A stretch of DNA of 64,000 bases. Origin: Cyanobium sp. Tous-M-B4 (GTDB lineage Bacteria; Cyanobacteriota; Cyanobacteriia; PCC-6307; Cyanobiaceae). The first letter of the stretch is position 1. Each line of letters opens with the position of its first letter. The stretch covers positions 372,001-436,000 of the forward strand of contig NZ_JAGQBA010000001.1 in NCBI RefSeq assembly GCF_024345395.1. The letters are read 5' to 3'. The notes beneath the pieces were generated by a model. The model did no database searches, was not told where the DNA came from, and worked only from the letters and a program-made list of their open reading frames with translations. Of this stretch, positions 14,019-42,774 are shown in pieces. The position numbers and the translations under genes were made by a program.

Positions 14019-14843
14019 TTGGCATCTGATCCGCGTCAAATCAAAAAATTGCCTTTGATTAGGTTTTCAGCTGCAAGGCTCAGGCGTCTTCGCAAGGTGC
14101 GTGGCGTCTTTATGCAGGTCCTAGTGCTTTGTGCTGTCAAAGTTGCAGTTCATTTTTGTGGTCTTGAGCGAATAAGCGTTAATCAATTGTTTTCGGCTAT
14201 GGTTGCATCGACTATTTTTTTGTTGGGCTTTTTGTTGAATGGTGTGCTTACCGACTTTAAGGAAAGTGAGAAAATACCTGCTGAATTAGCGACCTCTCTT
14301 CAGACGCTCAATTTGGAAATCCAGGCGATTCAGATCTATCACCCTGAGGCTCAGATTGCTCCAGCCCTCTCCGCGGTAACTGGCCTTGGCCAGTCTTTGC
14401 TGGATTGGTTGAAGGAGCGGATCAGTACTGAGCAAATGCTGGCGTGCCACACTCAAGCTCATGCAGCGGTGGTGGGTGCTGCGCTGCAGATCAAGGGTGA
14501 TGCGTCTACTTTGAGGGGAAGGCTTATGCAGGATTTAGCGGTAGTTCTTGCAAAGGTTAATCGGGTCCAAGCCATACGAGATACATCATTTGTGCCGCTT
14601 GTCTATTGGATGGCAGACATAGCCGCAGTGCTCCTCTTTGCGGGTTTGGTAATGGCAAAAGCTGAAAACCTTCCCGAGTCTGTATTTTTTCTTGCAGTAA
14701 TTTCCTTTATTGTAATTTTGTTGTTGCGCTTGATCGACGATATTGATAATCCTTTCGGCCTGTCTGACATAAATTCGGCAGAGGACGTGTCGATCGAATT
14801 GTTGGAAAAGGCGGTTGATCGCCTTAGGGTTGCCTCTAAGTAA
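14019..14843 (+). CDS. Four-TM membrane protein, bestrophin/DUF4239-like
   Basis: 274 residues from a TTG start (an internal ATG, MQVLVLCAV, is the alternative). Hydrophobic segments at about residues 30-50, 60-80, 188-208 and 215-238 form two hairpins around a soluble helical middle, the layout of DUF4239 proteins. Assignment is by layout only. The gene is clearly richer in A/T than its neighbours, with more TTT, AAA and ATT codons, suggesting recent acquisition. The 3' end overlaps the convergent mscS by 8 bp. Confidence 0.6.
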   Translation: MASDPRQIKKLPLIRFSAARLRRLRKVRGVFMQVLVLCAVKVAVHFCGLERISVNQLFSAMVASTIFLLGFLLNGVLTDFKESEKIPAELATSLQTLNLEIQAIQIYHPEAQIAPALSAVTGLGQSLLDWLKERISTEQMLACHTQAHAAVVGAALQIKGDASTLRGRLMQDLAVVLAKVNRVQAIRDTSFVPLVYWMADIAAVLLFAGLVMAKAENLPESVFFLAVISFIVILLLRLIDDIDNPFGLSDINSAEDVSIELLEKAVDRLRVASK

Positions 14844-25006: not shown

Positions 25007-28000
25007 ATGGCTCCCGCCCCCAAGGCCAAATCCAGCGTCAATTTCGAAGTCCAGGCATCTGCCCGCAAATCTGAGAGTGCCGTTCAAGTAGCAGCATCTG
25101 CAGTCGCACCAGCACCTGCAGCCGCACCAGTATCAGTGCCTGTTGCCGCACCAGCAGCAGTGCCTGCTGCCCCGGCTCTGGCCAACAGCAATGCATTCCC
25201 TGGTCAGCCTGCAGAAGCTCCCGCAGCTCCCCTGCTGGGAACTCTCAACCTGACGCCCACTGGCACCTCGGGCGAACAGTTCCAGACCGAAATTTCCGCC
25301 ACCGTCACGATCGGCGGCAAGTTGTTTGTGCTCTCCAGCGGCGGCGGCAGCACCCTGCAGGTGACTGATGCCACCGATGCCACCCAGCCAGAGCTGGTGG
25401 GCCGTGAGTCCTATGGCGACGGCTACGTCTCCACATCAGTAGCCAGCTACGGCGATCTCCTGGCTGTGGCCCTGTCGCCGGCCGACTACGACACCACCGG
25501 CGGCAAGGGCCTGGTGCGCTTCTATCGCGTCGGCGTCAACGGCACGCTCACCCAGATTGCCGATGTTGTTGTTGGCTATCTGCCTGATGGGATCGCCTTC
25601 AATGAAACTGGCACCAAGCTGGTGATTGCCAATGAAGGTCAGCCTGCGGCTGGCTACACCCTGGATCGCCCTGGCAGCATCGGCATCATTGACATTCAGG
25701 GTCGCGTGAACCCTGTTTTCACCTATACCGATCTTCTCTTTGATAATGTTGCCCTGCCGGAGGGCATCCGCATCTCCGGCCCCACGGGTACCACCCAGGC
25801 CACCGACATCGAGCCTGAATACGTCGCGATCCAGGGCATCTACGCCTACGTGACGTTGCAAGAGAACAATGGCGTGGCAAAGGTGAATCTGGCCACCAAC
25901 ACGATCGAGAAGATCTTCTCCCTGGGAACGGTCGACTACAGCACCCAGTTGGTGGATCTGAGCGACAAGGATGGTGGTTTCAAGCCCATGCTGGGCCAGG
26001 ACTATGAGGGCCTGCGCATGGCCGACGGCATCGCTGCCTACAGCGTCAAGGGTAAGGACTACTTCATCACCGCCAACGAGGGTGATGGCCGTGAGTACGG
26101 CACCTACACAGACGAAGCCCGCGGTTCCGGCAACGCCAATCGGGTCAAGCGTCTGACGGATGACGCCAATGTCGGTACTGATCTCACCACCACCTTCGGC
26201 AGCCGCAGCATCACCATCTTCGATGCCGACACCGGTGCCATGCTCTGGGACAGCGGCAACACCCTGCAGACGATTGCCTTCGCTGCCGGTGTGTACGACG
26301 ACGGCCGCAGTGACGACAAGGGCGCGGAACCCGAGGGCGTGGTGGTCGCCAAGGTGGACGGCCGCACCTACGCCATCGTCTCGCTGGAGCGGGGCGTCAG
26401 CTCGATGCTGGCCGTGTTCGACGTGAGCGATCCCACCGCCGGTCAGTTTGTGACCAGCACGGTGATCGCCGGAAGTATTTCACCTGAAGGCCTGCTGGTG
26501 GTAGATGCCAAGCAGAGCCCCACGGGCCGCACGCAGTTGGTGGTGTCTAACGAAATCTCCAACACTCTCAACATCTTCGACCTCGAGGCCCTGATCGCGG
26601 CGCCTCCTGTGGCCGGTGCCGGCACCTTCACCAGCACCATGCTCAAGGATGTGGAGGGTGGCCCGGAGCTGCAGATCACCAGCCTGCTCACGGCCGGTGA
26701 ATTCACCAATGGCCTAAACCCGGGCGACAGCGTCTACGCTCCCACCAGCATCTTTGATGGCCAGGGTGCTTACGACAATGGCGATGGCACCTATACCCTC
26801 CTGGTCAATAGCGAGCTCGGTTCCACCAGCGGCTATGGCTACCTGCTGCCTGGGGTTGAGGGTGGCTTCACTGGCGCCCGCGTTAGCAGCCTGGTGATCG
26901 ATAAGGACGTCGACGATGACGCCAGCAACGGCTACCAGAGTGCCGTGATTGCCGGTGGCCTGGCCTACGACAGCATCTACCTCGATGGCTCAGACACGGC
27001 GATCGATGAGGCTGCCGATCTTGGTGCCGGATTCAAGCGCTTCTGCGCCGCAAATCTGGTGGAAGCCAACAGCTTTGGTGCAGACATGGGCTTTGCCGAT
27101 CGCATCTACTTAGTGGGTGAAGAGGAGTTCGTGGGTGCTGGTGGCTCCTTCTTTGCCCTTGATGTGAATGGCCGCGCCATCCACGAGGTGTTGGGCTTCG
27201 GCAAGGGCACCTGGGAGTCGGCCACAAGCATCGACACCGGCAGCACCGACACGGTGGCCGTGCTGCTGTTTGACGATGCCAAGGCGCCTCTCTACATGTG
27301 GGTGGGCACCAAGAGCGCGGCTGCGGATGCCAGCTTCCTGGAGCGCAATGGCCTGGCAGCTAGCCAGGGGACGCTTTACACCTACGTCACCACGGCGCTC
27401 GATGGTTACGAGACTGGTGCGAGCACAGGCCCGGACTCTTCCGATCTGTTCGCCTTCACCGAGGTGAATGGCATCAATACAGCCATCAACGGCAGCTGGG
27501 TTGATCTGGCAAGCCTTAATGCCGATTACGCCAGTCTGGGCGCTCCCGCCCTGCGCGAATTGGCGGTCAATGCCGGTGCGTTGCAGCTCAGCCGGATCGA
27601 AGACGGCGAGGTGAATCCTCTCAACAGCCAGCAGGCGGTGTTCGTATCCACCGGTACGGCTGATTTCAACAAGGGTGATCTTTACGGCAACGTCTACACC
27701 CTGGATTTCAGTGCCGCCTTCGGCAGTGATGGCTTGGTTGCCGCCTCTGGTGAATCGGTGCTCAAGGTTGTCTATGACGGCGATCTGCTGGATGACCCCA
27801 CCACGGGTCTCCGCAACCCCGACAACATGACCATCAGTGCCGATGGTTTTGCCTACCTCCAGGAGGACCGGGCCAACGGCGGCGGCACTGACATCAGCGC
27901 CGGCAACTTCGGCACCCAGGAGGCCTCGATCTGGCAGCTGGAAATCGACTCGATCACCGGTGACTCCATTGGGGATCCCACCCGCTGGGCCCAGATCGAC

Positions 28001-28240
28001 CGCACCGTCTTTCCTACGGATTATGGGCAGACCCAGCCCACCTACACCAACCCAGACACCAATGGCGTTGGCAACTGGGAGTCTTCGGGCATTATCGATG
28101 TCTCGGCGATTTACGACTCCACAGCTGGGTCTTACTTCCTGGCCAATGTTCAGGCCCACAGCATCAAGGACGGCAACATCGGCGGCTCCGGCTACTTGGG
28201 GGAAGGTGGTCAGATCGATCTGATTCAACAAACCATCTGA
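25007..28240 (+). CDS. Two-domain secreted/surface-type protein: choice-of-anchor I domain plus PhoX/DUF839-like domain
   Basis: 1077 residues. Residues 1-75 are a low-complexity Ala/Pro/Val linker with no hydrophobic signal peptide. Residues 75-540 form a beta-propeller-like region (SSGGGSTLQVTDATDATQPE, DYFITANEGDGREYGTYTDE, DKGAEPEGVVVAKVDGRTYA) as in choice-of-anchor I proteins. Residues 550-1077 resemble DUF839/PhoX-like proteins (DGQGAYDNGDGTYTLLVNSE, NPDNMTISADGFAYLQED). Many Asp-rich turns suggest calcium binding. Cyanobacterial proteins of this type are often exported by type I secretion; that is inference here. Phosphatase or phytase activity is possible but unproven. Monocistronic, with its own terminator. 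Confidence 0.85.
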   Translation: MAPAPKAKSSVNFEVQASARKSESAVQVAASAVAPAPAAAPVSVPVAAPAAVPAAPALANSNAFPGQPAEAPAAPLLGTLNLTPTGTSGEQFQTEISATVTIGGKLFVLSSGGGSTLQVTDATDATQPELVGRESYGDGYVSTSVASYGDLLAVALSPADYDTTGGKGLVRFYRVGVNGTLTQIADVVVGYLPDGIAFNETGTKLVIANEGQPAAGYTLDRPGSIGIIDIQGRVNPVFTYTDLLFDNVALPEGIRISGPTGTTQATDIEPEYVAIQGIYAYVTLQENNGVAKVNLATNTIEKIFSLGTVDYSTQLVDLSDKDGGFKPMLGQDYEGLRMADGIAAYSVKGKDYFITANEGDGREYGTYTDEARGSGNANRVKRLTDDANVGTDLTTTFGSRSITIFDADTGAMLWDSGNTLQTIAFAAGVYDDGRSDDKGAEPEGVVVAKVDGRTYAIVSLERGVSSMLAVFDVSDPTAGQFVTSTVIAGSISPEGLLVVDAKQSPTGRTQLVVSNEISNTLNIFDLEALIAAPPVAGAGTFTSTMLKDVEGGPELQITSLLTAGEFTNGLNPGDSVYAPTSIFDGQGAYDNGDGTYTLLVNSELGSTSGYGYLLPGVEGGFTGARVSSLVIDKDVDDDASNGYQSAVIAGGLAYDSIYLDGSDTAIDEAADLGAGFKRFCAANLVEANSFGADMGFADRIYLVGEEEFVGAGGSFFALDVNGRAIHEVLGFGKGTWESATSIDTGSTDTVAVLLFDDAKAPLYMWVGTKSAAADASFLERNGLAASQGTLYTYVTTALDGYETGASTGPDSSDLFAFTEVNGINTAINGSWVDLASLNADYASLGAPALRELAVNAGALQLSRIEDGEVNPLNSQQAVFVSTGTADFNKGDLYGNVYTLDFSAAFGSDGLVAASGESVLKVVYDGDLLDDPTTGLRNPDNMTISADGFAYLQEDRANGGGTDISAGNFGTQEASIWQLEIDSITGDSIGDPTRWAQIDRTVFPTDYGQTQPTYTNPDTNGVGNWESSGIIDVSAIYDSTAGSYFLANVQAHSIKDGNIGGSGYLGEGGQIDLIQQTI

Positions 28241-28262
28241 GTTCTCCAGCTCGGATTCACTT

Positions 28263-28286
28263 GCCCCCCGAAAGGGGGGCTTTTTT
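28263..28286 (+). terminator. Rho-independent terminator of the 25007 gene
   Basis: Stem GCCCCCC (28263-28269), tetraloop GAAA, GGGGGGC (28274-28280), then six T. It is one of the two clear intrinsic terminators in the window. It also lies just downstream of the minus-strand 51-codon gene, but has no T-run in that direction. Confidence 0.95.
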
Positions 28287-28296
28287 ATTGCCTGCC

Positions 28297-28452
28297 TTAG
28301 GGCAGCCGCCAATCGCGCAGCGCTGCGATCAGCACAAACCAAGCCAGCCTCAGCTTTGCCAGCAGCCCCTGCTGGGCGGCGAGCTGGTCGTATTTGGCGC
28401 GGCCGCACTCCGTTTTGATCCAGCGGTAGGCCTGCGGCAGGGGATGGTCCAT
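28297..28452 (-). CDS. Small hypothetical protein (51 aa)
   Basis: ATG 28452 to TAA 28297. The product begins MDHPLPQAYRWIKTECGRAK and contains one hydrophobic stretch (LAWFVLIAALRDW). Codon use matches neighbouring genes and the frame fills the gap left by the convergent 25007 gene. Recognition rests on coding character only; the Shine-Dalgarno is weak. Confidence 0.55.
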   Translation of the reverse strand: MDHPLPQAYRWIKTECGRAKYDQLAAQQGLLAKLRLAWFVLIAALRDWRLP

Positions 28453-28953: not shown

Positions 28954-29687
28954 TTGCTTTTGTGGTTACTGGGTGCTCGGCGTTCACGCCGCCGGCCCCG
29001 AGGCGGGCAACCTCTAGCCGAGCAACCCCTAGCCGAGAAAACTTTTGCTGCGCCAACCTCCTTCGATTTAGGGCAATGGCAGCCCGATCGACCGATTAAT
29101 CTGTTGCTGGAGGTTGATCACCTTCAGCTTGATGGCACAACTTTGAGGGGGCAGATCCGCGTCAAGCGCTATCGCCTTAGCAAGCAGGGAGATCAGGCAA
29201 TTCTGGGAGCTCACTGTCAGCTACTTAAGCGTTTTCTGGATTTCAATAGCCAGTCGCTGCAGCGCTGTTTGGATTTGCAGAGTGGCGAACGGATCGATGA
29301 TCTGCCCGCCTTTCTTGAGGCCAGCCATGCTGCTAGTCAGCAGGGACAGCTTGACCGTCTCTATCAAAGCCACCAAGATGAATTGGCCGTTCTTTTATAT
29401 GTGGGGCGTGCCGATGGAGTTTTGCAGCGGCGCGAAAAAGAACTAATTGCCCACTACCTGGCGGGCCGATTTACAGGTGGAGCCTTGCAAGTTGAAGAGA
29501 TCGCCCATGATCTGGCCTGGAAGCCTGTGCCAAATCGCGATGATTTCAGGCTGGCCACGCAACGGCTTGCGCTGCTGGATGCATCGCTAAAAAATCAGAT
29601 CGTGCAGCTTTGCAGGCAGCTCATTGAGGTGAAGGAAACCCTTGATGGCGATGAGGAGGGATCTATGGCTGAAGTGATCGCCCTGCT

Positions 29688-29697
<10 letters not shown>
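28954..29697 (+). CDS. TerB-like domain protein
   Basis: 247 residues from a TTG start; no ATG or GTG is available in frame. A short hydrophobic or basic N-terminus leads into a repeat-derived segment (residues about 18-28), then a WYL-like beta region (LEVDHLQLDGTTLRGQIRVK). The C-terminal half is TerB-like: DELAVLLYVGRADGVLQRRE for the first helix pair with its acidic metal-type residues. TerB proteins are linked to metal or stress responses. The stop lies inside a 16-bp tandem repeat shared with the ligA stop. Confidence 0.65.
29007..29036. repeat. 15-bp tandem repeat near the 5' end of the TerB-like gene
   Basis: Two 15-base units, 29007-29021 and 29022-29036, with one mismatch, encoding the repeat QPLAE. 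It keeps the frame. Same character as the repeats at other gene ends in this window. Confidence 0.75.
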
Positions 29698-34539: not shown

Positions 34540-35169
34540 TTACTGAGTTTGTAAATCGTGACAAAGCTTGGCTGGGCCCAGCCAGTGCTCAAGGGCTGGT
34601 GAGAACACCTCCCGAATCACGGTGAGCTCCTTGCCGCCGCGGAAGAAGCGGTAGTGGCGACTCCAGAAGGGGCCCGGCAAGCCAAAGCGCTGCTCCAGCC
34701 AGGGAGCAGCAACAAGGGCCAGGCCATCCACCTCGCGGAACAGTTCAGCTCGCTTGACCGTCAGGCTGCGCCAGATCGGCAGCTCCCGCTGCTGCAGGTA
34801 GGCGTCGGCCTGGCTTTGATTCCACCAGCTCTCTGCCCAGGCCAGGGTCTTGTCGCCGCAGCGCAGCCATACCTGACGCCGCAGCAGGGGGCCATCGAGC
34901 TCGACGATTTCGGGGGGCGGTGGCGCGCCGGTGCTGGGGCCGGCTGGCTCAGGCGCCATGGCGATCAGCTCGATCTCCACCGGCTTGCCCGTGAGCGACT
35001 CCAGGTGCCGGGTGGGGCTGCCATCACCCAGCAGCAGCAGCCGCCAGGGGCCGCTGAGCCTGGCCGCAAGCGTGGAGCCCAGCAGGTTTTCCTGCCCCCA
35101 GCCGTCAACTGGAACGGGCGAGGCCATCAGGGAATTGCCGGGATTCACGCCGGAGGGCTCCGCAATCAT
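34540..35169 (-). CDS. Chorismate lyase-like protein (DUF98)
   Basis: Converts chorismate to 4-hydroxybenzoate and pyruvate, the first step of plastoquinone synthesis in cyanobacteria. 209 residues with the family segments LLLLGDGSPTRHLESLTGKP, a conserved Arg region in LPIWRSLTVKRAELFRE, and LTVIREVFSPALEHWLG near the C-terminus. It is the cyanobacterial DUF98 type rather than E. coli UbiC. Divergent from the glycosyltransferase island. Confidence 0.85.
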   Translation of the reverse strand: MIAEPSGVNPGNSLMASPVPVDGWGQENLLGSTLAARLSGPWRLLLLGDGSPTRHLESLTGKPVEIELIAMAPEPAGPSTGAPPPPEIVELDGPLLRRQVWLRCGDKTLAWAESWWNQSQADAYLQQRELPIWRSLTVKRAELFREVDGLALVAAPWLEQRFGLPGPFWSRHYRFFRGGKELTVIREVFSPALEHWLGPAKLCHDLQTQ

Positions 35170-35242
35170 CTGGGCCCATCCTGATCAGGCTCGCTAGCCC
35201 AGCGTGAACGCTGCCCGTTCGTCAGAATCTTTGCAACTGCCT

Positions 35243-35250
35243 GGAGGAGG
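35243..35250 (+). promoter_or_regulatory. Strong Shine-Dalgarno of the 35259 gene
   Basis: GGAGGAGG, eight bases before ATG 35259. This is far stronger than most ribosome sites in the window and fixes the start. Confidence 0.75.
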
Positions 35251-35258
35251 CGAACTGC

Positions 35259-36317
35259 ATGCTTCCAGACGTGGTCGTGCTCAACCTGCATCGCCGCTAC
35301 ACGGGCGTTTCGGCCACGGTGAAGGCACTGCTGCCGCGTCAGCGCCAGACCCTGGCAATTGGGCTCTGGGATCAAGGCAACCTGGAATTGCCCGACCGTT
35401 TGGGTCTCTGGGCCCTGCTGCGCTGGGGCTGGACTAGTCCCCACAAAGGGCCCTGGCGTATCTGGCACGCGCGTCGTGACAATGAGATCTTGCTGGGTTT
35501 GGTCCTGCGCTCCCTACTGCGTCAGCCCTGGCAGGTGATCTTCACCTCTGCAGCGCCAAAGCGACCAGGTTGGTGGTTGCGCCAGTTGATCCGCTGCACT
35601 GATTTGGTGATCGCAACATCGCCCCGATCAGCTGGCTTTCTTGAGCGTTGTGATGCCGTGATTTTTCACGGTGTCGATTGCGAGCAGTTTCAGCCTGCAG
35701 CAAACCGAGAGGCAGCTCTGGCCGAAGTGGGGATGGAAGGCCTCAAGTGCATAGCCAGCTTTGGCCGAATCCGACCCAGCAAGGGCACTGATTTGCTGGT
35801 GGAGGCATTGGTTGCGTTATTGCCCGAGTTTCCTGGCTGGGTGGGGGTGATTACGGGCCTTTGTCAACGCCGTGATCAGGCTTATCTTGCCGCTTTAAGA
35901 CGGCAGATTGCCTTGGCTGGCCTAGAGCAAAGAATTCATTTTGTGGGAGATCTTGATCCTGTCGATATACGGCGTTGGTATCAACGGGCCTCGATTTGTG
36001 TTGCAGCATCGCGCCGTGAAGGGTTTGGCCTCACCCCGCTGGAGGCTATGGCCAGTGGTTGTGTACCGGTCACATCCCAGGCTGGAGCTTGGCCGTGGAT
36101 TGTGCGGCCTGAATTTGGTCTTATTTTCGAAAACGGTGACCACCTGCAGTTGGCAGCCGCACTTCGCGACTTGATGAGTGATGAAGGGCGTCTCCAGGTA
36201 ATGTCAGCGAAAGCCCGCATGGTCGCGCTTCAGGAGTTCTCTATTGAAGAGGAGGCGGCTCAGATCAATTCCCTGTACTCCACGTCCTTAACCAAATCGA
36301 GGAGTCAGCAGCAATGA
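35259..36317 (+). CDS. Glycosyltransferase family 4-type (GT-B)
   Basis: 352 residues. The C-terminal nucleotide-sugar half is canonical: SFGRIRPSKGTDLLVEAL, IHFVGDLDPVDIRRWYQRAS, and the E-x7-E motif in REGFGLTPLEAMASGCVPV. The N-terminal acceptor half is shorter than usual. Comparable enzymes build lipopolysaccharide core or exopolysaccharide at the inner membrane. GC content begins to fall in its 3' half. The stop overlaps the next start as ATGA. Confidence 0.92.
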   Translation: MLPDVVVLNLHRRYTGVSATVKALLPRQRQTLAIGLWDQGNLELPDRLGLWALLRWGWTSPHKGPWRIWHARRDNEILLGLVLRSLLRQPWQVIFTSAAPKRPGWWLRQLIRCTDLVIATSPRSAGFLERCDAVIFHGVDCEQFQPAANREAALAEVGMEGLKCIASFGRIRPSKGTDLLVEALVALLPEFPGWVGVITGLCQRRDQAYLAALRRQIALAGLEQRIHFVGDLDPVDIRRWYQRASICVAASRREGFGLTPLEAMASGCVPVTSQAGAWPWIVRPEFGLIFENGDHLQLAAALRDLMSDEGRLQVMSAKARMVALQEFSIEEEAAQINSLYSTSLTKSRSQQQ

Positions 36318-37150
36318 GAGCGGCTGCCAGGCCAGATGTAAGCGTCATTATTTCCACATATAATTCGCCGAGTTGGCTTAAATTTGTATTAGAGGGCTAT
36401 TTTCTGCAAAGCTTTAATGGTTCCTTTGAGATTATTGTTGCCGATGACGGTTCGACCGCCGAAACGGGCCGACTGATTGAAGCTCTGAGTCGCCGCAGTC
36501 CAGTGCCTTTAATACACGTCTGGCAGCCTGATCAAGGATTTCAGAAATGTAGAATTCTCAATAAAGCAATTGCCAAGTCCGCCGGTGAGCTGCTGCTATT
36601 GACTGATGGCGACTGCGTGCCCCAACCTCATATGGTGAAGCTGCATGCTGAGCGGGCGCGCTTTGGCAGTTTTCTCACTGGTGGCTATTTTAAGTTGCCA
36701 GAATCGCTTTCGCACCTGATTTCGCTCGAGGATATTAAGCAGGGTCGCGTATTTAAGCCGGCTTGGCTGGTCAGTAATGGTTTGCAGCCATCTGCATCGC
36801 TACTCAAGCTAATGCTTGTGGCGCCATTCGATCGACTTGCTAATCGTCTTACTCCCACGAAGCGAACTTGGAACGGACACAATTCCTCCTGCTATCGAGC
36901 AGATGCTATTGCCGTTAATGGATTTAATGAGCAGATGCAATATGGAGGCGAAGACGTGGAATTTGGCTGGCGACTTAATTTCTCTGGCATTAGGGGGCGC
37001 CATCTAAGATTTTCTACGGTGCCTGTGCATTTGTTTCATCGCCATAGTTATGTCACACCTGAAATGCTGGATCGCAGCAAGGAGTTACGTGCCGAGACCC
37101 GCAGGTTGCGTATCAAGCGAGCTGAGCTTGGCTTAGATCAGTGGCTATGA
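36314..37150 (+). CDS. Glycosyltransferase family 2
   Basis: 278 residues, GT-A fold: DVSVIISTYNSPSWLKFVLE at the N-terminus, the first acidic pair in IIVADDGSTAETG, the DxD-type metal site in LLLTDGDCVP, and the catalytic ED in MQYGGEDVEFGWRL. The GxxD-like QGFQKCRILNKAIAKS resembles chondroitin-synthase/galactosyltransferase-type GT2 enzymes. Cotranslated with the preceding GT4 gene. Noticeably AT-richer than the chromosome around it. Its 3' end overlaps the convergent pyruvyltransferase gene by 6 bp. Confidence 0.93.
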   Translation: MRAAARPDVSVIISTYNSPSWLKFVLEGYFLQSFNGSFEIIVADDGSTAETGRLIEALSRRSPVPLIHVWQPDQGFQKCRILNKAIAKSAGELLLLTDGDCVPQPHMVKLHAERARFGSFLTGGYFKLPESLSHLISLEDIKQGRVFKPAWLVSNGLQPSASLLKLMLVAPFDRLANRLTPTKRTWNGHNSSCYRADAIAVNGFNEQMQYGGEDVEFGWRLNFSGIRGRHLRFSTVPVHLFHRHSYVTPEMLDRSKELRAETRRLRIKRAELGLDQWL

Positions 37151-38356
37151 CTTATTTCTCAAACCACTAAGAGTTCGTTGAATTAATTGTTTCGAGCCGC
37201 CAGGCCAGCAAGTGCTCAATTCATTAAAGTCATAGGAGGTGGCATCTTTAGGGCTAGCCTTAGTTAATTGGCCGAGCGAAAAAATCTCGGCAAATTTTGA
37301 TACTTCCAGGGTGTGCTTTTTGCCTAGCTGGCGCATCCCTTGCATAACGTCGCCGTGTGAAAGCTTTTGCAGCTCTACTTCGATTGTTTCTGCTATTGGG
37401 CCTGTATTCGCCAGGAGGGTAATTCCCTGGGAATCGCGAGCTAGCCACTCATTTTTGTGGGTATTGGCAGCAACTAGAAAAGAGGGTACATCCATGCAGG
37501 CGCATAGAATTGCCATGTGATAGCGACCGCCGATATGAAGCCGGCATTTAGAGATTTTTTCTGCTGCATCTTCCAGTTCTTCATAATAGCAAAATTCACC
37601 GCCAAGCTCTAAAATTGTATCTCGTAAAGGCAGTAGATCTTGCCATTGCTTTGTGAGCACGAGTGGCAAATGACCGGAGTGCTTGCAGTAGTCGATTGCC
37701 CGCCTTGCAGTTTCAATATTGGCCTGTCGGTTAAGGCCGGCGCTGGTGGTTATCAGTAGATGGGTGCGATCAGATAGTGGTTTGATATTTGCGCGCTGCC
37801 ACGAGCAGGCGGCATCGGGAACAAAGTTGACTTTGTAAGTCTCTGCGCTGAATTGATCGCGCACGGAGAAGTGTGCTGACCAGTTTATTAGTGTTTTAAT
37901 GAGCTGCGATCTTTCGTCGCTAAATAGTGGGAAGGTTCCGTTTATTGTAATTAGGGGTGCCGTATATGCCTTGCCAAATAAAAGGGGGAGGGAGAGTAGT
38001 CTGAGCATGCGCATCGGCCCATCCCACTCGTTAACTGTTCCCTCTGGCTGGAAGATGGCTAAATCATAAGACCCTAGTGTTCTAACGCAATATTCGCCAT
38101 ATTCATGGGCCGCAAGGGCGTTCATTCCGGCAAGACTTGGTTTTCTCATGTCTGCCATGAGGAGCCTAGATGCTATTTGAATCCCAACACTTCGCCCAAA
38201 TCGCCATGGCGCTGGGATTAGCTGAAGTTCTAAGCCATTGAGCGCAAAAGCCTGAGTCAGATTTCGCTTAAGTAAGCGGCTTGTTAGCCGGCAGCCGACA
38301 TTCTCTCGGCCGTCCGTATCATTAATGAATAGGGCCTTAATTCGACGCATTGGCAT
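37145..38356 (-). CDS. Polysaccharide pyruvyl transferase family protein
   Basis: 403 residues, GT-B-like fold of the CsaB/WcaK group. N-terminal FINDTDGRENVGCRLTSRLL, then YDLAIFQPEGTVNEWDGPMR, and the diagnostic HIGGRYHMAILCACMDVPSF near residue 300. Such enzymes add a pyruvate ketal to a surface sugar. ATG overlaps the upstream stop as TAATG. AT-rich and part of the island. Confidence 0.88.
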   Translation of the reverse strand: MPMRRIKALFINDTDGRENVGCRLTSRLLKRNLTQAFALNGLELQLIPAPWRFGRSVGIQIASRLLMADMRKPSLAGMNALAAHEYGEYCVRTLGSYDLAIFQPEGTVNEWDGPMRMLRLLSLPLLFGKAYTAPLITINGTFPLFSDERSQLIKTLINWSAHFSVRDQFSAETYKVNFVPDAACSWQRANIKPLSDRTHLLITTSAGLNRQANIETARRAIDYCKHSGHLPLVLTKQWQDLLPLRDTILELGGEFCYYEELEDAAEKISKCRLHIGGRYHMAILCACMDVPSFLVAANTHKNEWLARDSQGITLLANTGPIAETIEVELQKLSHGDVMQGMRQLGKKHTLEVSKFAEIFSLGQLTKASPKDATSYDFNELSTCWPGGSKQLIQRTLSGLRNKS

Positions 38357-38961
38357 TAGTTAAGGTTTAGTACTTGGTTCGCTGCTAAATTTTCAATGTA
38401 CGCTCTTTCGCGGCTCCAGTCGTGTCGCTTCCAGCCTTGGAAGCCAAAGCCAAATAGTCTGATATTGGATCTCTTTGCATGCAGGTCAACAATATGCCTT
38501 ACGGCTAACAAGCCGCTGCTTGGGAATCTGCTGCGTAGCCCCATGCCCTCAATCTGAAGGGCCTGGCAAGCTTTCTGGTAGGCCTCTGCGCTCAGAGTTA
38601 TGCAAGGCTTTTGGTGCTGGCTTGCCAGGTCTTTACATTGCTGAGTGAGGTCGGCCCGTCTCCCCTTTAGCCAGGAAACGGGATTTGGTTTTGGCATGTA
38701 TTTAGCAATTATTTGGGGGTGATAGGGAAGCATTAGGGATTTAGCTTGTCTAAATATTGGTCCTTTGATGTATTGGCTGCATCCTAAAAGCTGACTGGTT
38801 TGCTTGGATGAATTCGAAAGTACGAGGATGTCGGTTTTCGCGGCTCCGTATATATGGCTCGGGGGGGGTGAGTTGAAGCGAACTATCAGATTTGCCTGCT
38901 CGATTGCGGTTAGATCAGCTTGTTTTAGTGCGCCATTGCCAACAATGGCTATCTCATCCAT
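38356..38961 (-). CDS. Sialyltransferase-like (GT29-type) protein
   Basis: 201 residues. The N-terminus IAIVGNGALKQADLTAIEQA followed by NLIVRFN resembles the L-sialylmotif of GT29 enzymes, and RFPSSGLLAVRHIVDLHAKR with IRLFGFGFQG resembles the S motif. It ends with KRHDWSRERAYIENLA, a pattern seen in bacterial GT29-like proteins. The donor sugar is unknown and need not be CMP-sialic acid. Coupled to the pyruvyltransferase by TAATG. AT-rich. Confidence 0.65.
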   Translation of the reverse strand: MDEIAIVGNGALKQADLTAIEQANLIVRFNSPPPSHIYGAAKTDILVLSNSSKQTSQLLGCSQYIKGPIFRQAKSLMLPYHPQIIAKYMPKPNPVSWLKGRRADLTQQCKDLASQHQKPCITLSAEAYQKACQALQIEGMGLRSRFPSSGLLAVRHIVDLHAKRSNIRLFGFGFQGWKRHDWSRERAYIENLAANQVLNLN

Positions 38962-38996
38962 GTCTGGCTACTTGGTGGGACTTGGGGAAAGGGTTC

Positions 38997-39980
38997 TTAG
39001 TAGCCGCTGCTGATGCTGATGCGGCGTTGTTCGCCGCCCTTTTCAATGACCGCCGTATCACCACTGGCAGAGCGCAAGCGCCAGCCGCTGCTGCCGATGC
39101 TCTCGCCCACGGCGGCGCTGGTAGAGCTGCCGCCCAATTGAAAGATTGCTGAGCCGCTTTGCCCTGGCACCTGCACCACTCCCACGAGCTGGGGAGCGTT
39201 ACCACCACCGCCACTATTTCCACCACCACCACTCGAGGCGCTGCCCCCAGTGCTGCTGGCTGAGCCGGTGGCAGCCGGTGCCGGACTGGTGATGCGGCTA
39301 TTGATGGGCACTTTGAGTACGTCGGCTGCTGGGGCGCTGCTGGCTGGCAGGGTTGCCAGCTCTTCCATCCAGGGTTCGCCTGGCGGCGGTGGGGGCAGCT
39401 CTCCGTCTTCCCCTGCCCCAACTGCGACGGCTGCCTGGGCGGGCTCGTTTGCTTGGGCTGGGGTTGTGCCGGGCCCCATGGTGCGCAGCCGCTCGATCAG
39501 CAGCATGTTGCGCTCCTGGCGGATGGCCTGCTGGCTCTGGTTCCAGAGGCCGAGCACGGCCAGGGCCATCCCTGCTACCACCATCACCGTCACACTGGCT
39601 CCTGCCAGCAGCAGGCTGGGCTGGCGGCCAACCTGATCTGCAAGCCGCTGCAAGGGTTTGGCCGCCGAGGCTGGGCGGCGCCTTGCTGAAGCTGGCTTTG
39701 GTTTGGAAGTTGGTTGTTTAGCTGGGGCTGGCCTGGAGGCAGGGGGCTTAGACGCAGCAGAATGAGACGCATCAGAATTAGACGGAGCAGCGTTAGAGAC
39801 TGCTGCTGGCGGCAGGTCATGCAGCTCTACGGGGATGCTGCCGGCATCGGAAAATGCTGCAGGCGTGTCGCAGACCTCCACCTCAATCGGCTTTTCGGGT
39901 TCGAACACCCGATTGAGCACCTGCTCTGCCTTGAGCTCCCAGTAGGCCCGGGAGGTAGGGATGCCTCGTACCGGACTCAC
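38997..39980 (-). CDS. Membrane protein with PilP/GspC-like C-terminal domain
   Basis: 327 residues from a GTG start (SPVRGIPTSRAYWELKAEQV). Residues 65-105 are a Ser/Ala/Pro/Lys linker containing a degenerate 15-bp repeat, followed by one membrane helix at about 122-145, a Gly/Ser-rich linker, and a C-terminal beta domain: PQLVGVVQVPGQSGSAIFQL and VGESIGSSGWRLRSASGDTA. That arrangement matches inner-membrane PilP/GspC periplasmic domains of type IV pilus or type II secretion systems. Located between mnmG and the sugar island. Function inferred only. Confidence 0.7.
   Translation of the reverse strand: MSPVRGIPTSRAYWELKAEQVLNRVFEPEKPIEVEVCDTPAAFSDAGSIPVELHDLPPAAVSNAAPSNSDASHSAASKPPASRPAPAKQPTSKPKPASARRRPASAAKPLQRLADQVGRQPSLLLAGASVTVMVVAGMALAVLGLWNQSQQAIRQERNMLLIERLRTMGPGTTPAQANEPAQAAVAVGAGEDGELPPPPPGEPWMEELATLPASSAPAADVLKVPINSRITSPAPAATGSASSTGGSASSGGGGNSGGGGNAPQLVGVVQVPGQSGSAIFQLGGSSTSAAVGESIGSSGWRLRSASGDTAVIEKGGEQRRISISSGY
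39751..39795. repeat. Degenerate 15-bp triple repeat inside the 38997 gene
   Basis: Units at 39751-39765, 39766-39780 and 39781-39795 share GACG-AGCAGAAT-A type sequence. On the minus strand they encode the low-complexity SNSDASHSAASK linker. In-frame expansion of a disordered linker is the simplest explanation. Confidence 0.6.
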
Positions 39981-39993
39981 TTGCTGCTACCTC

Positions 39994-41964
39994 TTACCTA
40001 ATGAGATCAAGATTACCGGCCCTTTGCTGACTTGACGAGTTTTGGCGTTTGCGTAGCTCCAGCCAGAGCAGCAGGGCCGTGACGTCGGCAGGGCTAACCC
40101 CGGGGATGCGGGCGGCTTGGCCGAGGCTGAGGGGTTGGATTGAGTTGAGTTTTTCGCGGGCTTCCTTTGAAAGGGTGGCAATGGTGGCGTAATCCACGTC
40201 TGCTGGTAAGGCCCGGTGCTCCTGCTTTTTCACCTGGTCGATCTGCTGCTGCTGACGGGCCAGGTAGCCGCTGTATTTGATGTCGATCTCAGCGCCCTCA
40301 CGCACGTCGCTTGGCAACTCCGCCGGCGCCAGGCCTAGCCGCACCAGATCGCTGCTGTGGAAGCCGGAGCGGCGCAGCAGGTCGGCCAAGGTTATCGATC
40401 CCCTGATGGGCGCTTGGGTCTGGGCCTCCACGGCGGCGGCGGCCGGGTCGCTGCCCTTGAGCCGCACCGATTCCAGGCGCTGTTTTTCGCCGCTGATGGC
40501 TTGTTGTTTGGCGGTGTAGATGGCCCAGCGCTGCTCGTCGATCAGGCCCAGCTCCCGCCCTAGGGGGGTGAGGCGCCGGTCGGCGTTGTCGCCCCGCAAC
40601 ACCAGCCGGTATTCGCTGCGGCTGGTGAGTACGCGGTAGGGCTCGCGCAGATCCTTGCTGATCAGGTCGTCGATCATGGTGCCGATGTAGCTGCCCTCCC
40701 TGGGGAAGTGCACCGGCGCTTGGTCGCGCACCAGGCGGGCGGCGTTGAGGCCAGCCACCAGGCCCTGGGCCGCGGCTTCCTCGTAGCCGGTGGTGCCGTT
40801 GAGCTGGCCGGCGCAAAACAGCCCGGCTACCCGCTTGGTTTCCAGCGACGGCTTGAGCTGGGTGGCGGGCAGGTAGTCGTAGTCGACGGCGTAGGCGGGC
40901 CGCAGCATCACGCATTGCTCCAGGCCCGGCAGGGTGCGCAGCAGCTCGAGCTGCAGCCGCTCCGGCAGGCCGGTGGAGAAGCCCTGCACGTAAATCTCAG
41001 GCGTGTCGCGGCCCTCGGGTTCGAGAAAGATCTGGTGGCTTTCCTTGTCGGCGAAGCCCACGATTTTGTCTTCGATTGAGGGGCAGTAGCGGGGGCCCTT
41101 GCTGTCGATGAAGCCGCCGTAGATGGGGGTGAGGTGCAGGTTGTCGCGGATTAGCTGGTGGGTGGCTGCCGTGGTGCGGGTCATGTGGCAGCTCATCTGC
41201 TCGCCGCTCACCCAGGAGGCCGGATCAAAGGAGAAGAAGCGATCTACGGCATCGCTTGGCTGCTCTTCAAGTTGGTCGAGGGCGATGCTGCGCCGGTCTA
41301 CCCGGGCTGGGGTGCCAGTTTTGAGCCGGCCCATCTGGAAGCCCAGCGCCTCGAGGGCTTCGCTGAGGCCAACGGCGGCCTGCTCTCCTGCCCGGCCGGC
41401 GCTCATCGACTGGTTGCCCACCCAGATCTGACCGCCCAGGAAGGTGCCGGTGGTGAGGATTACGGCGGCGGCGCCGTAGCTGCTGCCGAAGTAGGTGCTG
41501 ATGCCGCTGATGCGGGCGTCCTCGCCGGGGGTGCCCGCCACCACCAGCCCGGTCACCATCGCTTCGCGCAGGGCCAGGTTTGGCGTGTGCTGCAGCAGCT
41601 GCAGCATCTGGCGGGCGTACTGGCGCTTGTCGGTTTGGGCGCGTAGGGCCCACACAGCAGGGCCGCGGCTGGCATTGAGCACCCGCTTCTGCAGGGCCGT
41701 GGCATCGGCCAGCCGGCCGATCACGCCGCCGAGGGCATCCACCTCGTGCACCAGCTGGCTCTTGGCTGGACCGCCCACCGCCGGGTTGCAAGGCTGCCAG
41801 GCGATGCGATCGAGGTTGAGCGAAAACAGGGCCGTGTTTAGCCCTAGGCGAGCGGCGGTGATGGCGGCCTCACAGCCGGCGTGGCCGCCGCCCACCACGA
41901 TCAAGTCGAAGTGCTCGGTGCAGGGTTCGACGCACGTCTGGCTGGCTGGGGTGCTGAACGGCAT
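39994..41964 (-). CDS. mnmG: tRNA uridine-5-carboxymethylaminomethyl modification enzyme
   Basis: With MnmE it modifies U34 in several tRNAs. 656 residues: FAD-binding [20 protein letters not shown], then [20 protein letters not shown], the conserved [15 protein letters not shown] and FYSFDPASW-like region, and the C-terminal helical domain with [20 protein letters not shown]. Length and motifs match the family. In the rplI-dnaB-mnmG neighbourhood, with a glycosyltransferase gene inserted upstream. Confidence 0.97.
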
Positions 41965-41994: not shown

Positions 41995-42774
41995 TCAGTG
42001 CCAGTGTTTGCGGATCTCGCCGGCGAGGTAGCCCCAGAGCTTGGGCTGGAGTGGATGGCGCAGGATCGTGCGGTGGGGATGGCGCCAGGGGTGCAGCACT
42101 TCCTCGGGCTTGGGCCGGCCGTGGAATTTGAGGATGGTGCAGGCTTCCAGCTGGCTTTGGGCGGCGGCGGCATCGCGGCTGGCGAGCTTGCGCAGGACCT
42201 TGTAGGAGCGCACCAGCTCTTCAGGCCAATAGGCAAGAGCTGCCGGCGCCAGCTCCTGGAAGACACGGAAGATGAAGTTCTGGTCGCCAGCAAAATACGC
42301 TCCGGCGTAGCGGCCCTCCTGCCAGCACTGCCATACCGCCTGGGTGTGGGCGTCGGGCCGGCACCACAGCACCGAGGAATTGAGGATCGGGTAGTTCCAG
42401 TCGCGCACGCCCATCAGGCTGGCGCTTGCGTTGCGGCCGAGCTCCACTAGGGGGGCTAGGTCGGCCCTGATCACCAGCGTGGAGTCGAGAAACAGGAAGG
42501 GATCGCTGCCCGTGAGGGCCTGATCAAACAGGCGCAGCTTGCTGAAATAGCCCCGCAGCCTGCCCTCCTCTAGGTCCTGTTGCACCAGCTGTTGATGGCT
42601 GGCGGACGGCTCGCCAAAGCGACCTGGTTCGGGCCTTTCGGTGTAGATGATGAAGTGATGGGGTTCACCCAACTGCCTGGCCACCATCGCCGCCAGCCGG
42701 CTCACCCAAAGATCGGGGTAGCGATCGCCGGTTTGCACCGTCACTACTTTGAGGGGCGCTTGCGTAGGCGGCAC
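41995..42774 (-). CDS. GT-A glycosyltransferase-like protein
   Basis: 259 residues from GTG 42774. KVVTVQTGDRYPDLWVSRLA at the N-terminus, PHHFIIYTERPEPGRF, and the acidic metal site in DPFLFLDSTLVIRADL suggest a GT8-like or related GT-A fold. The downstream NSSVLWCRPDAHTQAVWQCW and FHGRPKPEEVLHPW fit sugar transferases of this class. The start is 3 bp after the dnaB stop, so it belongs to the same transcript. Donor and acceptor are unknown. Confidence 0.78.
   Translation of the reverse strand: MPPTQAPLKVVTVQTGDRYPDLWVSRLAAMVARQLGEPHHFIIYTERPEPGRFGEPSASHQQLVQQDLEEGRLRGYFSKLRLFDQALTGSDPFLFLDSTLVIRADLAPLVELGRNASASLMGVRDWNYPILNSSVLWCRPDAHTQAVWQCWQEGRYAGAYFAGDQNFIFRVFQELAPAALAYWPEELVRSYKVLRKLASRDAAAAQSQLEACTILKFHGRPKPEEVLHPWRHPHRTILRHPLQPKLWGYLAGEIRKHWH

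Follow-up and report, generated by a model that had tools for sequence, protein, structure and literature searches.

The 64,000-nucleotide stretch of Cyanobium sp. Tous-M-B4 considered here (contig NZ_JAGQBA010000001.1, positions 372,001 to 436,000), hereafter the window, carries four open reading frames (ORFs) for a glycosyltransferase (GT) of family GT4, a GT of family GT2, a polysaccharide pyruvyltransferase-family protein and a small GT29-like, i.e. sialyltransferase-fold, protein, all lying between a chorismate lyase gene and mnmG (Table 1). They occupy a variable slot, that is a stretch differing between relatives while its flanks remain alignable, and the genes in this slot probably serve to add charged sugars to the cell surface. 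It appears rather probable that this island is the current load of a changeable surface-glycan slot specific to the genus, with cassette exchange, an acidic cap from a cytidine monophosphate (CMP)-activated donor and a pyruvate ketal as proposed below.

An earlier note on this DNA had described four coupled genes. The four ORFs are indeed present, but they form two convergent pairs rather than a single four-gene unit, namely GT4-GT2 on the plus strand, overlapping by 4 nt, and GT29-like-pyruvyltransferase on the minus strand, where stop and start have one base in common. Regarding guanine plus cytosine (GC) content, the 44 other non-overlapping window ORFs of at least 150 aa average 0.655 (standard deviation, sd, 0.040); against this reference GT4 is mildly low (0.576, z -2.0), while GT2 (0.493, z -4.1), the pyruvyltransferase (0.481, z -4.3) and the GT29-like gene (0.486, z -4.2) are strongly low, which bears out the drop in the last three genes announced in that note. 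Low GC by itself does not single out the island, since an isolated and unrelated ORF at 14019-14843, whose one family match, bestrophin-like, is weak and below cut-off, is equally low (0.471, z -4.6). Promoter-like sites at the slot number 4 vs. 3.0 (sd 1.8) in shuffled sequence, and terminator-like sites 2 vs. 5.1 (sd 2.3). The minus-strand pair would probably be transcribed by read-through from mnmG and the hypothetical gene of the right flank, which is plausible because the GT29-like gene starts 35 nt past the end of the hypothetical gene, which in turn follows mnmG closely and shares its strand, and because promoter-like sites are at shuffle level.

Table 1. Features of the slot and its flanks in the window, and content of the same slot in other genomes of the genus (G numbers designate the genomes compared)
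Feature	Position	Strand	Remarks
Variable slot	35060..38990		Limits from blastn block ends against five genus genomes
Chorismate lyase, cyanobacterial	34540..35169	-	Left flank; NF037993 248.4 bits, cut-off 175
GT4-family glycosyltransferase	35259..36317	+	352 aa; PF00534 102.8 bits; semi-resident gene, chorismate-lyase end of the slot
GT2-family glycosyltransferase	36314..37150	+	278 aa; PF00535 58.4 bits; Glyco_transf_7C segment PF02709 27.1 bits
Polysaccharide pyruvyltransferase-family protein	37145..38356	-	403 aa; PF04230 62.1 bits, cut-off 25.3
Minimal GT29-like (sialyltransferase-fold) glycosyltransferase	38356..38961	-	201 aa; PF00777 13.6 bits, below cut-off 23
Hypothetical gene	38997..39980	-	Right flank; homologs in 12/16 genus genomes
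mnmG (gidA), presumed	39994..41964	-	Right flank; homolog adjoining the slot in genus genomes
G005 slot			Two sulfotransferases
G012 slot			FkbM methyltransferase, sulfotransferase, ORF without Pfam family
G001 slot			GT4, GT2, Stf0 sulfotransferase, Wzy_C (O-antigen) ligase, ORF without Pfam family
G015 slot			GT4 and GT2
G013 slot			Two further GT-family 1/4 proteins and GT2
G002 slot			Second GT4-type protein
G009 slot			Two small ORFs without Pfam family
G014 and G007 slots			GT4 and <1 kb
G004 slot			GT4 and 300-aa ORF
G010 (two contigs), lyase side			GT4 match 67%
G010, mnmG side			Weak GT4-like (17.8 bits, below cut-off), GT8, GT10 and GT11 family proteins, weak GT-D-like
G008 and G011, lyase side only			GT4 match 55% (G008), 32% over part (G011)

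Slot position and content within and beyond the genus

The genus set comprises 16 genomes, one per species, and comparisons are therefore between species. Chorismate lyase was found in 14 of them, G003 and G006, which gave no match, being uninformative on the slot. In the 11 genomes (own included) where both flanks lie on a single contig, the slot is filled without exception, with about 2.0-5.7 kb. A GT4 homolog occurs at the same position in 8 of the 10 other contiguous genomes, at 51-66% identity, against an identity of MnmG (as we take 39994..41964 to be from its sequence) of 76-95% across those GT4-bearing genomes (G009 not in the MnmG table), and G001 has at the same position a gene 60% identical to GT2. 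The remaining content changes from species to species (Table 1), as established by a Pfam scan of 20 proteins from 7 of the 10 other genomes plus G010, outside which stand G014, G007, G004 and some ORFs of G002 and G009.

At the nucleotide level, the alignment blocks directly next to the slot share 91.5-94.0% identity with the three nearest relatives, G005, G012 and G001. These alignment blocks end at 35048-35059 and restart at 38991-39002, with identical edges in the more distant G014 and G015; because of the left-hand limit, the chorismate lyase start may lie further in than annotated. Inside the slot, nothing aligns with G005 or G012, only GT4 (70% DNA identity) and GT2 (64%) align with G001, and with G014 and G015 the alignment is limited to short pieces (about 90-110 bp) at the beginning of GT4. 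Similar flanks with common edges fit cassette exchange, in which homologous recombination between the conserved flanks would replace one cassette with another. Even the shared GT4 seems to be fast-changing or exchanged, because MnmG is 95% identical between the window and G001 but GT4 only 66%.

Conserved flanks enclosing glycan genes that differ among relatives are the mark of a hypervariable surface-glycan island, and this is what the genus displays. As for an integrase-type genomic island, the corresponding set of integrase, tRNA site and flanking direct repeats is not what the locus holds: no mobility gene occurs among the slot proteins scanned, the slot edges give weak two-copy matches only and no convincing flanking repeat, and the two tRNAs of the window are at 8.7 and 20.9 kb. 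Slot ORFs have a GC of 0.40-0.54 in G005, G012, G001 and G010 vs. 0.62-0.68 in the flanks, and GT4 of G014 and G007 is mildly low (about 0.60). According to the earlier note, an island conserved with normal GC in most relatives would have spoken against its reading; what the genus keeps is the position, not the contents. Its view of a strain-specific surface sugar holds in the form of a lineage-specific acidic-glycan island, the GT29-like gene being confined to its own genome among 79 and the pyruvyltransferase matching in 2 of 151, with the specificity shown between species only.

Outside the genus, the site looks different. Chorismate lyase is present in 120 of 121 family genomes (all at least 95% complete, and counting those of the genus), from which 20 genomes of 19 other genera with enough contig around this gene were hand-picked rather than drawn at random. 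In all 20, mnmG is 33-1969 bp from chorismate lyase, and tblastn (E 1e-6, about 20 kb around the site) gave no homolog of the four island genes in any of them. The hypothetical gene is detectable between lyase and mnmG in 16/20, its ORF occupying most of the gap; it fills the gap alone in 15 and is accompanied in G165 by a 213-aa M23 peptidase (PF01551, 90.2 bits), the remaining four having gaps of 33-170 bp without any ORF of 100 aa. On this sample of 20, the glycan slot thus appears to be a feature of one genus.

The GT29-like protein and the pyruvyltransferase

The smallest protein, named GT29-like in the earlier note, falls below the PF00777 gathering cut-off (Table 1), but a homolog 37% identical to it in Rhizobium (L004) passes at 29.4 bits, and the predicted fold agrees. 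Eight homologs, 33-42% identical, were found in genome contigs, all alphaproteobacterial by record titles, i.e. five Rhizobium, one Salipiger, one Hyphomicrobiales metagenome-assembled genome and one 'Rhizobiales bacterium'. Seven relatives were put to Pfam, namely five of these eight, a homolog on a Phyllobacterium plasmid and a distant relative from Sinorhizobium; besides L004, five scored 15.8-22.3 bits and the Sinorhizobium protein had no match.

The AlphaFold model obtained from the nine-sequence alignment has a predicted local distance difference test (pLDDT) of 81.9 and a predicted template modelling score (pTM) of 0.82. By Foldseek against the PDB, all 16 matches with E <=0.001 were mammalian sialyltransferases, followed at 0.0011 by Campylobacter CstII. 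By VIA-align, the top 24 rows were all sialyltransferases (Z 11.6 to 9.1; following row 7.5), the best being the mammalian enzyme 2wnf (Z 11.6, root mean square deviation 2.9 over 155 residues), with ranges of 11.6-9.2 for the mammalian enzymes and 9.1-9.8 for Campylobacter CstI/CstII, and 10.1 for the Pasteurella multocida sialyltransferase. The model therefore has a GT29/GT42-type fold. A single-sequence PDB search returned nothing for this protein or for the pyruvyltransferase, and a PDB profile search with the GT29-like alignment gave weak matches to ST6Gal1 and ST3Gal1 (E 0.002-0.011), an unrelated tRNA ligase standing at 0.34. Invariant in the nine-sequence alignment are 34 columns, including G8, N9, R28, F29, N30, F146-P147-S148, G150, G171-F172, H180 and E185, and these stretches may correspond to sialylmotifs, that is L-like (I.GN, RFN), S-like (FPS.G, GF) and VS-like (H180-x4-E185), motif III not being separately established. 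The 201-aa protein is consequently predicted, on its modelled fold, to be a minimal GT29-fold enzyme.

Regarding its distribution, the PF00777 search in 151 family genomes was uninformative on absence, as it gave no match at all, not in the 14 control genomes nor even to the window's own gene, and absence was therefore judged by protein and homolog-alignment searches. By these, the gene is found in its own genome alone among the 79 genomes searched (own included), and the sole full-length match of the alignment in 386 cyanobacteria is again the window's own genome. Three partial GT29-profile matches in other cyanobacteria were left out of the homolog count; they cover about 50 positions (E 1.6e-4 to 4e-4) and lie within open frames of 344-429 aa. 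Phage and viral collections contained zero relatives. Among 385 sampled alphaproteobacterial genomes, only the starting genome, G529, matched at E 1e-10; the clade thus seems to be rare, and sampling alphaproteobacteria could not broaden the donor test described below. G529 also carries a second, more distant GT29-like gene (L094, G529:C58:148798-149334, 81 bits). On plasmids, relatives 25-28% identical are found (e.g. L120:6013-6600), 10 of 20 of which bear a urease accessory product name. The rival function 'Urease operon accessory protein' was set aside: no urease gene is annotated in the single such region inspected, so the label is treated as a carried-over name, and the phrase was not found in the open-access papers searched.

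For the pyruvyltransferase, the family proposed in the earlier note is solid, the PF04230 score being well over its cut-off (Table 1), though not at the level of the CsaB equivalog TIGR03609 (31.0 bits vs. a cut-off of 213.1). Members of this family take phosphoenolpyruvate as donor and form a pyruvate ketal. Of its two matches in the 151 family genomes, one is the gene itself and the other, in G123 (E 8.7e-5), is short, weak and in a frame with stops, and was not counted. Viral contigs, the viral collection searched with this protein, gave no relatives. In the plasmid collection, 61 records match, 60 of them Sinorhizobium, none spanning 80% of the query. The homolog on pSymB of S. meliloti, 37% identical over 317 columns, passes PF04230 (85.4 bits), and in the one region considered its annotated neighbours include KpsF/GutQ and CMP-Kdo synthetase within 10 kb, Kdo being 3-deoxy-D-manno-octulosonic acid, as well as a sulfotransferase and several glycosyltransferases. 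This neighbourhood fits an acidic, Kdo-related glycan; it does not prove the substrate.

Donor sugar, proposed mechanism and alternatives

As the earlier note had advised, genes for CMP-sialic or other nonulosonic acid synthesis were sought in the rest of the genome. A NeuB-type synthase is indeed present on contig C6 of the window genome, G000 (C6:84528-85235), inside a 761-aa CBS-NeuB-SAF-TIM (xylose-isomerase-like) protein (L067:9410-11695), scoring 261.1 bits with PF03102 and 305.5 bits with the best NCBIfam model, NeuB_NnaB, under its cut-off of 399.65. About 3.7 kb away is a PseF-like cytidylyltransferase (104.5 bits, cut-off 205.7), and the locus also holds three DUF6716 proteins, sulfotransferase-family proteins and a Capsule_synth (PF05159) protein, which we take to be KpsC-type. 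The NeuB-type protein is also present in G005. For Kdo, the window genome has kdsA-kdsC-kdsB together, with KdsA and KdsB above their equivalog cut-offs and KdsC above the subfamily but below the equivalog one. In contrast to the window genome, none of the eight genomes with close GT29-like homologs had a NeuB match, while the identical search matched 9 of 14 control genomes; a CTP_transf_3 match of at least 128 bits was found in seven of the eight, and the two checked were both over the KdsB equivalog cut-off. Since NeuB was thus found in 0/8 of these genomes and a KdsB-type match in 7/8, sialylation is not the best reading of the GT29-like protein, for which CMP-Kdo is a likelier donor than CMP-sialic acid, both being kept in play by the kds genes and the NeuB locus of the window genome; the enzyme may attach an acidic sugar other than sialic acid. 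The homologs in L007 and L009 have GT25 and polysaccharide deacetylase genes as neighbours and the one in L006 a protein that contains GT25, while the Phyllobacterium plasmid homolog is followed by a gene with a glycosyltransferase annotation (weak GT8 match).

As proposed, the resident-type GT4 and the GT2 would lengthen a glycan, the GT29-like enzyme would attach an acidic sugar of the ulosonic type taken from a CMP-activated donor, CMP-Kdo likelier than CMP-sialic acid, and the pyruvyltransferase would add a pyruvate ketal from phosphoenolpyruvate. Both gene pairs would then act jointly, extending a surface glycan and capping it with ulosonic acid and pyruvate ketal, and the product would be a negatively charged surface glycan replaced in one stroke upon cassette exchange. 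Each of these chemical steps is deduced from protein families. The lipopolysaccharide of two marine Synechococcus strains is reported, in the part of the source available, to be without Kdo (PMC4515613), so Kdo here may go into a capsule-type or other glycan. A bolder proposal, which we hold tentatively, is that a rare bacterial clade of minimal GT29-fold enzymes, about 200 residues long, might transfer not sialic acid but Kdo or a Kdo-like ulosonic acid, and that one copy would have entered a cyanobacterium through the genus-specific slot along with a pyruvyltransferase.

Several observations weigh against this proposed explanation. The GT29-like protein of the window does not reach the Pfam GT29 cut-off. 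The NeuB-type synthase and the cytidylyltransferase of the window genome mean that a nonulosonate donor may be at hand. One of the homolog genomes, G527, has neither NeuB nor a KdsB-type match, and six of the eight carry a second weak CTP_transf_3 match of 21-30 bits. Five of the eight NeuB-free genomes are Rhizobium, so that they represent about four lineages, of genomes whose completeness is not stated. The genes next to the Rhizobium L004 homolog (DUF1402, GDPD) give no hint of a glycan function. In G013, G002 and G009, mnmG itself is at 0.51-0.54, so that low GC does not distinguish the slot there. Finally, exchange of cassettes by recombination is read from sequence comparison, no event having been caught.

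Among the alternatives, true sialylation, in which the GT29-like enzyme would use a CMP-nonulosonic acid (of sialic, legionaminic or pseudaminic type) supplied by the capsule-type locus of its own genome on C6, is rather unlikely yet the most serious. The NeuB-type synthase and PseF-like cytidylyltransferase beside the Capsule_synth protein would provide the donor, and the fold is that of sialyltransferases; however, this sits badly with the lack of NeuB in the genomes of the close homologs, with G005, which has the same NeuB-type and cytidylyltransferase genes but not the GT29-like gene, and with the three putative transferases (DUF6716) that the C6 locus has of its own.

A slot filled once in the ancestor of the genus, followed by divergence or loss without any cassette exchange, would account for the GT4 homolog at the chorismate-lyase end in 9 of the 11 contiguous genomes (own included) and for GT4 identities that broadly track those of MnmG. 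Such vertical inheritance with fast decay is nonetheless improbable in view of the disparity between MnmG and GT4 towards G001, of the slots of G005 and G012, unalignable though their abutting flanks are 91.5-93.5% identical, and of the unrelated gene families filling the same place. Least probable of all is that the genes for the GT29-like protein and the pyruvyltransferase are inactive remnants of a transfer: both are rare among the relatives searched, but each has an unbroken frame, the stop of one overlapping the start of the other, and the GT29-like protein keeps all 34 invariant columns, which it does by definition and which shows only that no such site is broken.

Relation to known systems and other variable spots

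The exchangeable surface-glycan slot favoured here has counterparts among known systems. In capsule and O-antigen type exchange, e.g. at the pneumococcal cps locus, fixed flanks enclose changing contents, with recombination in the flanks as the likely route, and the present slot is alike; unlike such loci, the slots scanned hold a few transfer and tailoring genes and no full polymerisation and export set. The genomic islands of marine Synechococcus are described, in the available part of the report, as hypervariable and of deviant composition, with glycosyltransferases as the leading class of known function and avoidance of grazers and phages as a suggested role (PMC2441476). The present locus resembles them as a hypervariable region of deviant composition with glycosyltransferases, but differs, as far as that part of the report goes, in being one slot of about 2.0-5.7 kb at a fixed site, with two conserved flanks, in one genus.

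Bacterial GT29 proteins have been reported from alpha-, gamma- and epsilonproteobacteria, the available part of the source not naming cyanobacteria (PMC5811610). With GT29 sialyltransferases, the proteobacterial ones included, the window protein shares, to the extent that the sources available allow comparison, the fold and stretches that we take for motif-like (I.GN, RFN, FPS.G, H-x4-E); it departs from them by its length of about 200 aa in all, by nearest relatives whose genomes have no NeuB match and by its cyanobacterial host. The plant protein RCKT1, another GT29 member, has been proposed as a CMP-Kdo transferase from the Kdo loss of mutants, without in vitro assay, in the part of the paper at hand (PMC11288761); unlike the window protein, it is a plant Golgi enzyme for rhamnogalacturonan II, and the two are likened without direct sequence comparison. 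Neither the slot nor a cyanobacterial GT29 was found in searches of an open-access library, among the matches listed.

As a source of surface variation in picocyanobacteria, the slot is well defined and confined to a single locus; related genera give a slot-free comparison, and deleting or exchanging its few kb lets its effect on phage or grazer sensitivity be tested. Besides, the small bacterial enzymes of the GT29-like clade make it possible to ask whether GT29 uses Kdo in addition to sialic acid, a question which bears on plant GT29 proteins annotated as sialyltransferases.

Two further spots nearby were observed. Between mnmG and dnaB, at 41995-42774, a 259-aa gene without Pfam family marks a second variable spot; it is kept, 72-75% identical, in G010, G014 and G015 and missing in G005 and G012, which have about 1.57 kb of other DNA in its place (including a PMT_2-family protein in G005). 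The stretch 26000-28300, possibly variable, does not align with G012 and hardly aligns with G001 over the regions compared, though the DNA to its right does, and close to it lies an ORF (28954-29697) with a GC of 0.549.

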